DNA of 64,000 nucleotides from contig JAKFVC010000122.1 in the NCBI GenBank assembly GCA_021732415.1, positions 1-64,000 on the forward strand, read 5' to 3'. A program made the translations under genes and the position numbers. This document shows positions 17,858 through 22,885 of this stretch, piece by piece. Source of the stretch: Planctomycetaceae bacterium (GTDB lineage: Bacteria; Planctomycetota; Planctomycetia; Planctomycetales; Planctomycetaceae). The notes beneath the pieces were generated by a model. The model was not told where the DNA came from. It saw only the letters and a list, made by a program, of their open reading frames with translations, and searched no databases. Positions within the stretch are counted from its first letter, which is position 1. Every line of letters begins with the position of its first letter.

Positions 17858-20211
17858 TATAGAGTCTTCCTCATCTGAAACGGCGTGCTGTTGACGATAC
17901 CGAGGATCAGTCGCGAGAACCGATCATTGTCGCCGCGAGCCTCGCGAACGATCTTGCGGATGGCTGGAGCATCATAATACTCGACGCCTCGCCCCAGCGC
18001 AAATGTGAATAATTTCTCGGTCAGCGTTCGCACGAAGAGTTCTGGCCGGTTGAGCAACGCCTGCTCGAGTCCCCCAACGCCGGTAAATTCGCTGCCATCG
18101 ACCAGTCCGCCCGTGGCGTCGATGGGCTGGCCGGCATCGGTTCCTCGCCAGCGGCCGACCGCGTCAAAATTCTCGAGCGAAAACCCCACCGGATCCATCT
18201 GGTCATGGCAACTGGCGCAAGCGGCGTTCGCCCGATGCTGTTGGAGTCGCTCGCGCATCGAAAGCAGGCTGGAGACCGTATTGTCCTCGAGCGCAGGCAC
18301 GTTCGGCGGGGGAGGCGGCGGGGGCGTGCCGACGAAATTCTGGAGCACCCAGTGGCCACGAATCACGGGCGAAGTACGGGTCGCGTACGAAGTCACCGTC
18401 AGAATACTTGCTTGACGGAGCAGTCCACCGCGCTGGCTTTCTCCGTCAACGGCCACGCGCCGGAATCGGCTGCCGTAGACATGCGGGATCCCATAGTGCT
18501 TGGCCAGACGTTCGTTGAGATAGGTTGCGTCAGACTTGATCAGATCGAGCACGCTGCGGTCCTCGCGCAGGATGCCTCCGAAGAAGAGTTCGGTTTCCTG
18601 TCGCATCGCCTGTCGCAGGTTGTCGTCGAAATCCGGGAACAGCCGCATATCCGGCGTGACCGCGTCCAGATTGCGCAAGTAGAGCCATTGATCCGCGAAG
18701 TTGGTGACTAGCGATCGCGAACGGCGATCCGCCAACATGCGCCGCACTTGTCCTTCGAGCACCGCCGGCTGATTGAGCTCACCGCGAACCGCCAGATCGA
18801 GCAATTCGTCATCGGGCAGGCTGCTCCACAGAAAGAACGAGAGACGTGAGGCCAATTCGACGCCCTCAATGCGATAGGTGGTTCCGGACGGCCTATCGGG
18901 GGGATCACGTTCGATGCGAAACAAGAACTGCGGCTTCACGAGCAGCGAGCTGAGTGCCAATTCGATCCCCGCTTCGAATCCGCCGTCCGCACGGCCCTGT
19001 CGGTAGAACTCCAACGGCGCCCTCAAGTCCTCATCATCGACTGGTCGCCGATAGGCCTGGCGCGCCAACTTTGTAAGGATCCTCTTCGCACGCACCTCTT
19101 CGTCGCTGTGAGCTGGGGGCTGATCAACGAAGATGTGGCGTCGACTCGGCGTGTCACCGGGGCCAGCGGCGTCAAACGGTCCGATTATCGAGACCTCATA
19201 AACGGCCGGCCCGAGGCGGGGATGTCGATAGTAATTGAAATGGACATTGAGCGGCTGACGCCTCGTTTCCAGCAGCGATGACTGCTGTTTGAGAAACGTG
19301 GCGCCCACCGTGTGCGGACCGGCGGTCACTTTGACTCGCGACTTCAAATTGGCATCGACCGATTGATCGCTGAGGCCTCTTTCCGGAGGCTTGATGGCAA
19401 ATAGATCCACTCGCTGGCGGTCTAACAGCACTTCCAAGTCGTGCGGTTCACTGAGCCCCTCGATCCCTTCATTGCGGTCGCGCATCAGGTGCACTTGAAT
19501 CTCGTACTCACCGTCCTGTGGGAAGTTGTACGGAATCAAAACACCGCCGCGCGTGCCGAGCGGCAGGCCTTCGATATGGACGTCCTGGGTGATATCGGGA
19601 CGCACGCGCACGGTGTGCCCGCCAGGCCCCAGCGCAGCCGTGCCGACCGCGAGGCGACTGATTTTCTGCGCCGCCGAGATGTAGCGATTCAGCAAGGTCG
19701 GTGAGAGATCGGCGACCGTGATATTGTCAAAGCCATGACTCGATTCATCCGCGGGCAGGAGCGCGGCAACGTCCACCTCCAACCCCAGCAGGTCGCGGAT
19801 CGCATTCTGATACTCGGTGCGATTGAGACGCCGAAACGTTTCGGTGCGCCCTGGATTTGGAGATTTGGCAGCGGCCGTGTCGAGCGCTGATTCCAGTGAT
19901 GCGACAGCCGCGTCGAAGTCGCGTTCCGGCGGCCGGGGCGCTTTCTTGGGCGGCATCTGTCGCGCACCGAGCTTGCGGATCACCTTCTCCCAGGCTTCTG
20001 CATTCCGACCGATGTCCTGCGTAAGAAGATCGTCGAGGGCAAGCCCGGCTTGCCTGGTGGCGTTATCGTGACAGTTGAGGCAGTGTGACTCGATAAACTG
20101 CTTGAGACCTGACTTGTCGGATGGAGCTGTCTTGGGCGATGGTTCGTCGGCGACACAGATTGTTGTCAGGCTGGCAGCCACGAGCGAGATGGAAATCCAA
20201 GTGCGAATCAT
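17857..20211 (-). CDS. DUF1592-group protein with two c-type heme motifs
   Basis: This 784-residue exported protein has a signal peptide (cleavage near CVADEP) and the domain string DUF1587, DUF1595, DUF1592, DUF1588, DUF1585. CLNCH near residue 45 and CASCH near 665 are heme c attachment motifs. A proline run (TPPPPPPPNVP) marks the DUF1588-DUF1585 linker. Both hemes suggest electron transfer in the periplasm; donor and acceptor are unknown. It heads the operon with the DUF1552 and ankyrin genes. Confidence 0.9.
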   Translation of the reverse strand: MIRTWISISLVAASLTTICVADEPSPKTAPSDKSGLKQFIESHCLNCHDNATRQAGLALDDLLTQDIGRNAEAWEKVIRKLGARQMPPKKAPRPPERDFDAAVASLESALDTAAAKSPNPGRTETFRRLNRTEYQNAIRDLLGLEVDVAALLPADESSHGFDNITVADLSPTLLNRYISAAQKISRLAVGTAALGPGGHTVRVRPDITQDVHIEGLPLGTRGGVLIPYNFPQDGEYEIQVHLMRDRNEGIEGLSEPHDLEVLLDRQRVDLFAIKPPERGLSDQSVDANLKSRVKVTAGPHTVGATFLKQQSSLLETRRQPLNVHFNYYRHPRLGPAVYEVSIIGPFDAAGPGDTPSRRHIFVDQPPAHSDEEVRAKRILTKLARQAYRRPVDDEDLRAPLEFYRQGRADGGFEAGIELALSSLLVKPQFLFRIERDPPDRPSGTTYRIEGVELASRLSFFLWSSLPDDELLDLAVRGELNQPAVLEGQVRRMLADRRSRSLVTNFADQWLYLRNLDAVTPDMRLFPDFDDNLRQAMRQETELFFGGILREDRSVLDLIKSDATYLNERLAKHYGIPHVYGSRFRRVAVDGESQRGGLLRQASILTVTSYATRTSPVIRGHWVLQNFVGTPPPPPPPNVPALEDNTVSSLLSMRERLQQHRANAACASCHDQMDPVGFSLENFDAVGRWRGTDAGQPIDATGGLVDGSEFTGVGGLEQALLNRPELFVRTLTEKLFTFALGRGVEYYDAPAIRKIVREARGDNDRFSRLILGIVNSTPFQMRKTL

Positions 20212-20608
20212 GGGGAGCGCGTGCCTGAGGAGGATGACATGCCAGGGTCACATCAAGAATACTTGTTCGGGTCAGTGGCGGCAATCACACTCAGGTGCAA
20301 CCAATCTCGATGGAGGCCGCCGCTAAGTCAGGGCCATCGACGGCAATGGCCATACTCAGACGTTTGCTGCCGGAACCGTTGCCGCCGCGTATGGTCGTGT
20401 GAGGATCACGTTGATTATGGGAAGTCGCGAGAAAAATCGGCTCTGAATCGCAATCTGGCAACCAGACCGACCATCGCTCAACTGCTAGCCGAAGTCCCGA
20501 CCGATCACCCACAAGGCAGCGAAGCCGGCAACGAACAATCCCGGTTATTTCTGGATTTTCAAAGAAAAACGAAACGCATTTGATCTGATCTCAACATTTT
20601 CAGCTTGA
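20212..20608. other. intergenic region upstream of the sigma54-type promoter
   Basis: No convincing gene was seen. It should contain the promoter of the minus-strand DUF1592 operon and any upstream activator sites for the sigma54-type promoter at 20609. No clear tandem activator-site repeats were recognised. Confidence 0.4.
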
Positions 20609-20623
20609 TGGCATCAATCTTGC
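20609..20623 (+). promoter_or_regulatory. sigma54 (RpoN)-type promoter
   Basis: TGGCATCAATCTTGC matches the -24/-12 consensus TGGCAYR-N4-TTGC with the required ten bases between GG and GC. Transcription should begin near 20635, leaving a leader of about 95 bases. The leader contains the inverted repeat CATGAA-GCGA-TTCATG (20657-20672). One such match in 64 kb can arise by chance, but its place ahead of a small gene with a ribosome-binding site and terminator supports it. Confidence 0.6.
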
Positions 20624-20730
20624 GATCTCTATCGCCAGCGACTTTGATTCCGCTGACATGAAGCGATTCATGCGGCACTCAAAGTACGCACGCTTTAAGG
20701 CATTACTCTAGTAAGGAAGAGGGACACAAA

Positions 20731-20856
20731 ATGGAAATCCTCGTTATGGCACCCGCGTTTGCCGCTGCAGGTTATTCAGCGATGTATCTACTAGGTGGTG
20801 GCGGGTTGCTCGGGGCGATCATTATTTTCGTCGTCGCGAAAATGACCGGCCACTAA
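20731..20856 (+). CDS. 41-residue single-span membrane protein
   Basis: The gene starts with ATG after AAGGAAGAGGG and encodes MEILVMAPAFAAAG, then a glycine-rich hydrophobic span (LLGGGGLLGAIIIFVV) and a short polar tail AKMTGH. It is too short for usual gene finders. No family was recognised. Its own sigma54-type promoter and a terminator 29 bases past the stop make a compact unit of about 300 bases, suggesting activator-dependent expression. A membrane regulator, transporter accessory or type I toxin-like peptide are possibilities; none is shown. Confidence 0.7.
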   Translation: MEILVMAPAFAAAGYSAMYLLGGGGLLGAIIIFVVAKMTGH

Positions 20857-20884
20857 TTCGTTTAATTGGGGCAGCGAAACATAT

Positions 20885-20931
20885 AGACTCGCAGCTCTCC
20901 ATTATATAGATGGCGAGCGGCGAGCCTTTTT
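20885..20931 (+). terminator. intrinsic terminator of the small membrane-protein gene
   Basis: Arms 20885-20900 and 20912-20927 pair over 16 positions with three non-Watson-Crick positions, followed by a T-run (20927-20931). Confidence 0.65.
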
Positions 20932-21067
20932 CTATCTCGTTGTCACCTCTCGCGTTCTCTGATGGCTTGAGTCAGACGCAGTACCTCAGTCTTCATCACG
21001 TCGGCTGGTAGCTGGACGCGCTGGCCGTGGCCCGGCAAGATCCACTCGAACCGACCCCCGCGCCGAG

Positions 21068-21217
21068 CGATCCTCAAACGGCAAGATCTCCTTCCAGAAC
21101 ATCGTGGCGACAATCTATCGAGTCCTGGGCATCGAAATGGAAACCAAGATCCCCGACTTCAACGGCCGCCCGCAGTACGTGCTCGAAGACCGCGAACCGA
21201 TCCGCGAGTTATTCTGA
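21068..21217 (+). pseudogene. C-terminal remnant of a DUF1501 gene
   Basis: The plus-strand frame ending at TGA 21215-21217 reads SSNGKISFQNIVATIYRVLG then GRPQYVLEDREPIRELF. This matches the last 45 or so residues of DUF1501 proteins; compare LYHVLGIDPTLTFPDHAGRP at the end of the copy at 31457. No upstream DUF1501 sequence remains, so it is a decayed fragment. Confidence 0.75.
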
Positions 21218-21364: not shown

Positions 21365-21438
21365 GCTAAGTCACAAAGTGAGTACCATTTGGCGGTGAGG
21401 CCCCGGACCGGCAGCCAATTAAACCCGTACCAGACCAC

Positions 21439-21490
21439 CGACTTCTTTGATCCCTTCGACTTCTTTGATCCCTTCGACTTCTTTGAACTC
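21439..21490. repeat. tandem 18-bp repeat
   Basis: The unit TTCGACTTCTTTGATCCC is repeated, with decaying copies on the right and related tracts at 22190-22230 and 22340-22380. No reading frame across it looks like a real protein. Confidence 0.7.
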
Positions 21491-21775
21491 TTTGATTTCT
21501 TCGATCTGTCTGGAGTCTCACTTCGTAGGCTCGGCGCGTGAGCGGCACGGCGCTAGCCGCCGGTTTTTTCACCGTCGTTGAGACGAAGAACCGGTGGCTA
21601 GCGCCATTCCGCTCACAACTTCTTTGAATTCTTTGACCCCTTCGATTTCTTCGAACTGTCTTGAGTCTACTCTCCACTGACTCTGCTCAACTTTCTCGCC
21701 GCAGGCGTACCCCCGTGGCCGACGCTGCTAGCGTCCGCGTCCACAGACGCTGGCAGCGTCTGCCACGGGAGTCGG
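21489..21775. repeat. composite palindromic module, copy A
   Basis: This block of about 287 bases holds two hairpins: one around GCGGCACGGCGCTAGCCGCC with its complement 45 bases on, and one around GACGCTGCTAGCGTCCGCGT with its complement. It is duplicated in the same orientation at 22212-22499 with high identity. Confidence 0.85.
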
Positions 21776-21954
21776 ACATGCGCTGTTACGGCGCGACTTC
21801 TTTGAACTCTTTGAACACGCAGACACCTGAGTCGTTTACCTCACAACGCCGATCCCATTTCTTACCAATCACTTACGCACCATCTCAGTCAATCCGATCG
21901 ATTCCAGCACACGCGCATCACTTCGCCGCCATCTTTGAAATCTTCGAAGATTTG

Positions 21955-22070
21955 GAACACTGATCTCCGCTAATCTTCACTGATGAAGACGAAGAAGAGC
22001 TCATTACGCCACCAGCGGGCTTCGACTGAGGTTGAATTGATTAGCGTTGATTAGCGAAGATTAGTGTTCC
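21955..22070. repeat. imperfect inverted repeat
   Basis: A GGAACACTGATCTCCGCTAA segment is mirrored by a TTAGCGAAGATTAGTGTTCC segment about 60 bases downstream. The rest of 21776-22211 shows no gene. Confidence 0.55.
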
Positions 22071-22211
22071 CAATCCTTCTCCTAGCCGTTGCCGCAGGTC
22101 GGTCGACCTCAGCGATGGGAAATCATCCTGCGGTCTCGATTTCTCCCACGCAATAATCTCGCGCCATCTTTGAAATCTTTGACCGGTTCGAATTCTCTGC
22201 TCCCTTCGACT

Positions 22212-22499
22212 TCTTTGATTTCTTCAATCTGTCTTGAGTATCCCTTCGCGGGCTCGGCTCGTGAGCGGCACGGCGCTAGCCGCCGGTTTTTTCATCGTCG
22301 TTGAGACGAAGAACCGGTGGCTAGCGCCATTCCGCTCACAACTTCTTTGAATTCTTTGACCCCTTCGATTTATTCAATCTGTCTTGAGTCTACTCTCCAC
22401 TCACTCCCATCCACTCTCTTGCCGCAGGCGCACCCCCGTGGCGGACGCTGCCAGCGTCCGCGTCCACAGACGCTGGCAGCGTCTGCCACGGGAGCCGGA
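22212..22499. repeat. composite palindromic module, copy B
   Basis: This is a direct copy of the module at 21489-21775, offset by about 723 bases, with the same two hairpins and the same TTGAATTCTTTGACCCC spacer. The second hairpin core (GGCGGACGCTGCCAGCGTCC) also occurs alone near 40458. From 22500 to 22885 nothing else was recognised. Confidence 0.85.
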
Positions 22500-22885
22500 T
22501 CGGCGGCGTAAAACCCCGTCCCCTTCGACTTCTTTGAACTCTTTGCCTTCTTCACCCTTCGCCCCTCAAGCCTACTCTCGCCGCAGGCGCACCATGTGCG
22601 CCCTCGAACTGTCGCGCAGATCAAGTCCACCGCCCCCCGTTTCGCCAACCCGAGTCGTACTCTACGGGTGCCGGCACGAACCGCCAGTTAGCCCCTTCGA
22701 TGTCAGCTCACAGCTCAAATTCCCATTGTTCCGGCCGATCCCTCCCCAGACAATACTCTGCAGCACAGGACACCTTTCGATCATACAACGAGGCGTCAAT
22801 CTCACCAAAATGGCAGATCCCTCGTGCAGCCTGACCTACCGGGTACGGTCACGAAGCCATGCCGCCTCGTGGAAGGATGAAAACG

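Follow-up and report, generated by a model that had tools for sequence, protein, structure and literature searches.

The general-stress regulons directed by sigmaS, sigmaB or ECF factors such as AlgU contain the same set of genes, namely those for CsbD, OsmY/BON, YciE/F (DUF892) and YflT-like proteins; the AlgU regulon of Azotobacter vinelandii, for one, includes CsbD-like and BON proteins (PMC10651043). In planctomycetes, a genome-wide survey from 2025 predicted sigma54 promoters for stress genes (UspA, chaperones and proteases), and the predicted Planctomycetia regulon, like the one described below, has sigma54 before stress genes, with no CsbD or DUF892 COG in the main text (CsbD, COG3237 and COG3685 go unmentioned there); because the survey works by COG, an unannotated family of 41-residue proteins could not appear in it (PMC12316311). 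Our literature search, in which subscription journals were mostly not covered, found no paper that links CsbD with planctomycetes or describes the small protein analyzed here. Among small stress membrane proteins, the enterobacterial MgtS, AcrZ and TisB combine a single hydrophobic region with regulated transcription.

The window, a 64,000-nucleotide stretch of DNA from a Planctomycetaceae bacterium, contains a compact unit (Table 1) that is probably a monocistronic gene; its product, a conserved protein of 41 residues (hereafter, the microprotein), would be placed in the inner membrane and belong to a sigma54-dependent general-stress regulon in Planctomycetia. Compared with the described general-stress regulons, the Planctomycetia genes carry sigma54 sites, and the microprotein family was detected only in PVC bacteria and in none of the searched libraries. 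The microprotein is similar to MgtS, AcrZ and TisB in size, hydrophobic region and predicted regulated transcription, whereas no sequence relation was detected in the searched libraries, and the gene neighbours and taxon differ. A sequence-only reading of this locus had claimed a −24/−12 match with exact spacing, an inverted repeat in the leader, a good ribosome-binding site, a 41-codon frame and a T-tailed hairpin; all five are present, and the transcription start that it placed near 20635 coincides with the position predicted here from the promoter.

Table 1. Coordinates of the features of the microprotein gene in the window
Feature	Position	Strand	Basis or remark
Candidate activator site CCGACCGATCACC (weak)	20495..20512	+	about 107 nt before the −24 element
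Sigma54 −24/−12 promoter TGGCATCAATCTTGCG	20609..20624	+	GG-N10-GC; site kept in homologues
Predicted 5' leader with hairpin	20635..20730	+	fold z = −2.8; start at about 20635 predicted
Ribosome-binding region AAGGAAGAGGGACACAAA (then ATG)	20713..20730	+	sequence; AAGAGGG in congeneric copies
41-codon gene, small membrane protein MEILVMAPAFAAAGYSAMYLLGGGGLLGAIIIFVVAKMTGH	20731..20856	+	profile family, dN/dS, AlphaFold2
Intrinsic terminator	20888..20931	+	stem 20888-20924, T run 20927-20931; fold z = −3.3

The 41 codons occupy positions 20731-20853, followed by the stop codon. When the frame was compared with the congeneric copy L003, 17 nucleotide differences were distributed over the three codon positions as 3, 0 and 14 (dN 0.022, dS 0.77, dN/dS ~0.03), a pattern indicating that the gene is real and evolves under strong purifying selection. 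The leader hairpin and the terminator would also delimit a compact transcript of about 300 nt, as expected of a small regulatory RNA with a fortuitous open frame, but the concentration of differences in third codon positions contradicts this explanation and the protein is conserved between phyla, so that we give it hardly any credence.

In the alignment of 38 family members, A12, S16, Y19, L21, G23-G25, G28, A29 and A36 are invariant and Y15 and K37 nearly so, yielding the signature AAxxYSxxYLLxGGGxxGAxxIFxxAKxxGK. Hydropathy (19-residue mean) peaks at 2.2 around residues 17-36, and the AlphaFold2 model, built from 24 sequences, consists of a helix at residues 2-21, a break at GGG 22-24 and a second helix at 25-39 (mean pLDDT 86). 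The single hydrophobic span of the sequence-only reading is thus an acceptable description, except that the model has two helices broken at the glycines; judging from the model, the protein could equally well form a kinked helix or a short hairpin of helices. Sequence and model together suggest that the protein inserts into the membrane with its basic C-terminus inside and that it may pack through G24xxxG28 and G25xxxA29.

When the whole genomes of relatives were searched with the protein, homologues were clearly recognisable within its genus and family, and a profile search detected members in 19 of 170 family genomes and 45 of 397 class genomes; the distribution within the sampled class is therefore patchy. 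All 54 loci that emerged from a scan of ~85,000 species genomes lie in records labelled Planctomycetota, Verrucomicrobiota or Lentisphaerae, most of them metagenome-assembled genomes; Planctomycetaceae, Schlesneria, Phycisphaerales, Opitutaceae, Limisphaerales and Akkermansia-type bacteria are among those represented, with the proviso that the search patterns were built from planctomycete members, so that remoter relatives could escape. No family in Pfam, NCBIfam or PHROGs scored above its cut-off, and searches of PDB sequences, Rfam and plasmids matched no known family; the score against NF041738 (14 bits vs. a cut-off of 22) reflects only a glycine/hydrophobic resemblance. DUF3309 (PF11752) is likewise a tiny (~50 residues), hydrophobic, glycine-rich membrane protein of stress loci and adjoins the microprotein gene in four loci, but the families do not match, and membership in DUF3309 was rejected given the score below the cut-off. 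The microprotein is, on this sequence evidence, a member of an unnamed family of tiny membrane proteins of planctomycetes and verrucomicrobia, one that gene callers may easily miss. Frame and promoter are both kept far beyond close relatives, and many of the homologues in other planctomycetes stand behind sigma54 sites, which supports the earlier suggestion of a deliberately controlled small-protein gene, with a predicted dependence on sigma54. The extent of the family across the PVC group, its stress-gene neighbours and the sigma54 wiring shared with CsbD and DUF892 are additional to that suggestion.

The promoter sequence TGGCATCAATCTTGC at 20609-20623 (T20609, GG20610-20611, GC20622-20623) reads TGGCAT-CAATC-TTGC, with the exact GG-N10-GC spacing, and matches the sigma54 consensus TGGCAYRNNNNTTGC (GG and GC 10 nt apart), in which the R position is occupied by C here. 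With 5 occurrences of the loose pattern TGGYA-N6-YTGC in the whole window vs. 1.7 expected, the match is weak by itself and becomes significant through conservation. All three congeneric copies (L003, L020 and L040) have the same site, 120-139 nt 5' of the start codon, and the AAGAGGG of the ribosome-binding region is kept across four congeneric copies. The core of the leader hairpin, at 20650-20675, has the form CCGC...CATGAA-GCGA-TTCATG-CGG nested in ACTTTGA/TCAAAGT; in the leaders of L003, L020 and L040, a hairpin is similarly placed, with z of only −1.0 to −1.8. Leader structure as a family trait was ruled out, given the mean z of only −0.8 over 29 leaders.

We scored sigma54 sites with GG-N10-GC obligatory, accepting those that reached at least 16.3 and lay 40-250 nt 5' of the start codon; score and threshold were set in this analysis and start codons were picked by rule. 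Strong sites were found before 28 of the 38 planctomycete homologues (observed at 83-207 nt); the reverse complement gave none, and 5.6% of the distant windows passed. As a closer control, 10.7% passed among 122 other genes with free upstream DNA in the same loci (Fisher p ~ 2 × 10−13, a value that ignores relatedness, related sequences not being independent). The columns of the passing sites reproduce the textbook consensus TGGCAYG-N4-TTGC. Operons account for only some of the 10 homologues that have no site in the 40-250 nt range. Three of these lack a site of their own because they are placed inside longer units: in L059, the site sits before the CsbD gene directly upstream of the microprotein gene, in L023, it precedes an upstream 45-codon frame, and in L022, the microprotein gene closely follows a BON gene. 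Separately, in G011 (L062:7255-7426), a sigma54 site stands before an acidic frame of 45-56 codons (MHIVASDTLVADIATELELTSTEASLYLDGLLDDGDDFESTDFDD), followed by the microprotein gene, a DUF3309 gene and a CsbD-like gene; this frame may encode another small stress protein.

In a census that used seed proteins, stress genes were present in 44 of 94 loci (the two locus sets partly overlap), with counts of 21 for YflT-like, 16 for BON, 15 for DUF892, 5 each for CsbD and YihY, and 4 each for TopoIB and DUF3309; the Pfam names among the neighbours are BON, DUF892, CsbD, DUF3309, YflT and TopoIB, and the recurrence of YihY and TopoIB is mostly confined to single genera. Across the 40 long loci, stress genes reached a density of 0.141 per kb up to 2.5 kb away and of 0.018 per kb at greater distances, an approximately eight-fold difference. 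The gene order is BON - microprotein - YflT-like - DUF892 in the planctomycete G004 and BON - YflT-like - DUF892 - microprotein in several Verrucomicrobia. Recurrent clusters of BON, YflT-like, DUF892, CsbD or DUF3309 genes that enclose the microprotein gene or end with it were also seen in PVC loci L061, L062, L075, L080, L092, L099, L124, L149 and L154. In the window itself, the microprotein gene stands alone, with no stress genes beside it.

These neighbourhoods bear on two other possible functions. Instead of protecting the envelope in general, the microprotein could, like MgtS, AcrZ or SafA, be a small regulator that binds and tunes one larger protein of the membrane, such as a sensor kinase, a transporter or a protease. 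Its short sequence with one hydrophobic region, the invariant patch suited to helix packing and the predicted separate transcript in its own genome would fit this; we consider it rather unlikely, given that BON, YflT, DUF892 and CsbD genes recur alongside and no larger membrane-protein gene does. A type I toxin of the TisB/Hok sort, under regulated transcription, appears very improbable: recurrence in stress gene clusters and operons and the strong constraint across phyla do not accord with it, there is no Rfam match and no plasmid or PHROG home, and no sigma70-like site from which an antisense RNA could start was found on the minus strand in 20200-21200 (consensus scans being weak for this phylum); size, the one hydrophobic span and the structured leader speak for it.

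The sigma54 sites extend to the stress genes themselves. In 13 genomes (the window's own genome and relatives), sites of the same strength precede CsbD genes in 19 of 24 cases and DUF892 genes in 13 of 17 (32 of 41 together), mostly at 66-200 nt from the start codon; the genome to which the window belongs has them before all three CsbD genes and the sole DUF892 gene (4/4). That genome encodes rpoN, ~26 convincing enhancer-binding proteins and dozens of ECF factors, and a strict sigma54 pattern occurs in it at nine sites vs. three for the reversed pattern. Genes 3' of the strict sites, which sample the genome-wide regulon, include those for CsbD and, as judged by eye, a PRC-barrel-like secreted protein and a PEP-synthase-like protein. 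From these promoters, the microprotein gene and the general-stress genes of planctomycetes appear to be switched on together by sigma54; general stress responses are not usually wired in this way. In published stress arrays of R. baltica, a thioredoxin gene is discussed for which a sigma54 promoter had been predicted, with Studholme and Dixon 2004 cited; induction by heat was seen for none of rpoH, rpoE and rpoN, and the response of rpoN, which salt lowered, counts against a sigma54 stress reading (PMC2754498).

Two of the strict sites (L202 and L203; G000:C84:12543-12741) diverge into an exopolysaccharide-type gene pair; by eye, the pair resembles a sugar transferase and a polysaccharide pyruvyl-transferase, and an enhancer-binding protein gene lies ~1.3 kb away. 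Formation of a capsule or matrix is a well known use of sigma54, and the divergent pair with its nearby activator gene would suit a sigma54 envelope/exopolysaccharide module in which the stress neighbours are incidental. We regard this as improbable, because no exopolysaccharide gene recurs beside the homologues, whereas stress genes do, and these persist in Verrucomicrobia without sigma54 sites.

Nearly all verrucomicrobial homologues lack the sigma54 site. Instead, an ECF-like element, GGAAC-N16-(C/T)TAC (also GGAACC-N15-(C/T)TAC), was found 46-87 nt upstream of 5 of the 39 verrucomicrobial homologues (L105, L110, L125, L142 and L145) vs. 0.25 expected. Judging from these few sequences, the stress module seems to keep its protein content and to swap promoter type between the phyla.

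Activator sites were sought with k-mers, with dyads and with a PWM for which the upstream regions of CsbD genes served as training set. In L002, L020 and L040, the sequence CGATCACC stands at −100 to −107, one CsbD gene has it at −125, and sites resembling CGATCACC or GACGATCA lie at −66 to −127 in some members; in an independent test, the PWM gave 5 matches vs. 3.1 in random windows, which is not significant. The matches of CGATCACC and GGACGATCA are suggestive but not clearly more frequent than in random windows from these loci, and no activator site common to the family could be established. Blocks of the GACGATCA type at −69 to −127, possibly an activator site though not significant in the independent test, are kept upstream of CsbD genes and, in L029, of the microprotein gene (the loci are L189, L190, L192, L029, L175 and L180).

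The terminator hairpin (−21.6 kcal/mol) precedes TTTTCTAT; a simple terminator scanner made no call at 20888-20931 because the stem contains mismatches. Hairpins of this kind follow the gene in the congeneric copies L020 and L040, and terminators were found for 13 of 38 homologues vs. 5 of 38 controls; a dedicated terminator is common, not universal, in the family. Beyond it, at 20943-21217, there are what appear to be remains of genes. One, on the minus strand, is a C-terminal stretch (FEWILPGHGQRVQLPADVMKTEVL...) corresponding to the end of the convergent gene that adjoins the orthologue in L003 and L066; the fragment joined to it, on the plus strand (YRVLGIEMETKIPDFNGRPQYVLEDREPIRELF), looks by eye like the last part of a DUF1501 protein. 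Farther on, 21434-22553 contains two copies of an intergenic unit of 300 nt (21439-21738 and 22162-22461, 86% alike); composed of 9-bp repeats of the TTCTTTGAN type and a 31-nt inverted repeat (GTGAGCGGCACGGCGCTAGCCGCCGG and complement), it looks like a repetitive intergenic element.

For a stress-regulon membrane protein under sigma54, the reading that we prefer, the following course of events can be envisaged. A stress signal would activate one of the ~26 enhancer-binding proteins, which would open the sigma54 polymerase at the conserved promoter, whose activity is predicted; a short structured leader would be made and the 41-residue protein translated, its coding status resting on selection and its expression being predicted. 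The protein would then enter the cytoplasmic membrane with the basic AK..GK end inside, where the invariant GGGxxGA patch could pack against itself or a partner helix, and transcription would stop at the terminator. Together with the BON lipoprotein and the YflT-like, DUF892/YciF and CsbD proteins, it may contribute to stress tolerance of the cell and envelope, as its neighbours and the shared promoters suggest; the role that best fits these neighbours is to help hold the envelope together in stressed cells, either singly or in oligomeric form.

More broadly, we see about even chances that, in Planctomycetia, CsbD, YciF/DUF892, BON, YflT-like and PRC-barrel proteins and the microprotein are governed by sigma54 and enhancer-binding proteins, and that Verrucomicrobia possess homologous modules under other promoters. 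This would be a case of one stress module using different promoter types in sister phyla, and it bears on how planctomycetes organise their general stress response; the promoters of the CsbD, DUF892, PRC-barrel and microprotein genes are offered for testing. If the proposal holds, the microprotein would mark an envelope stress system specific to PVC bacteria and be one of its core components.
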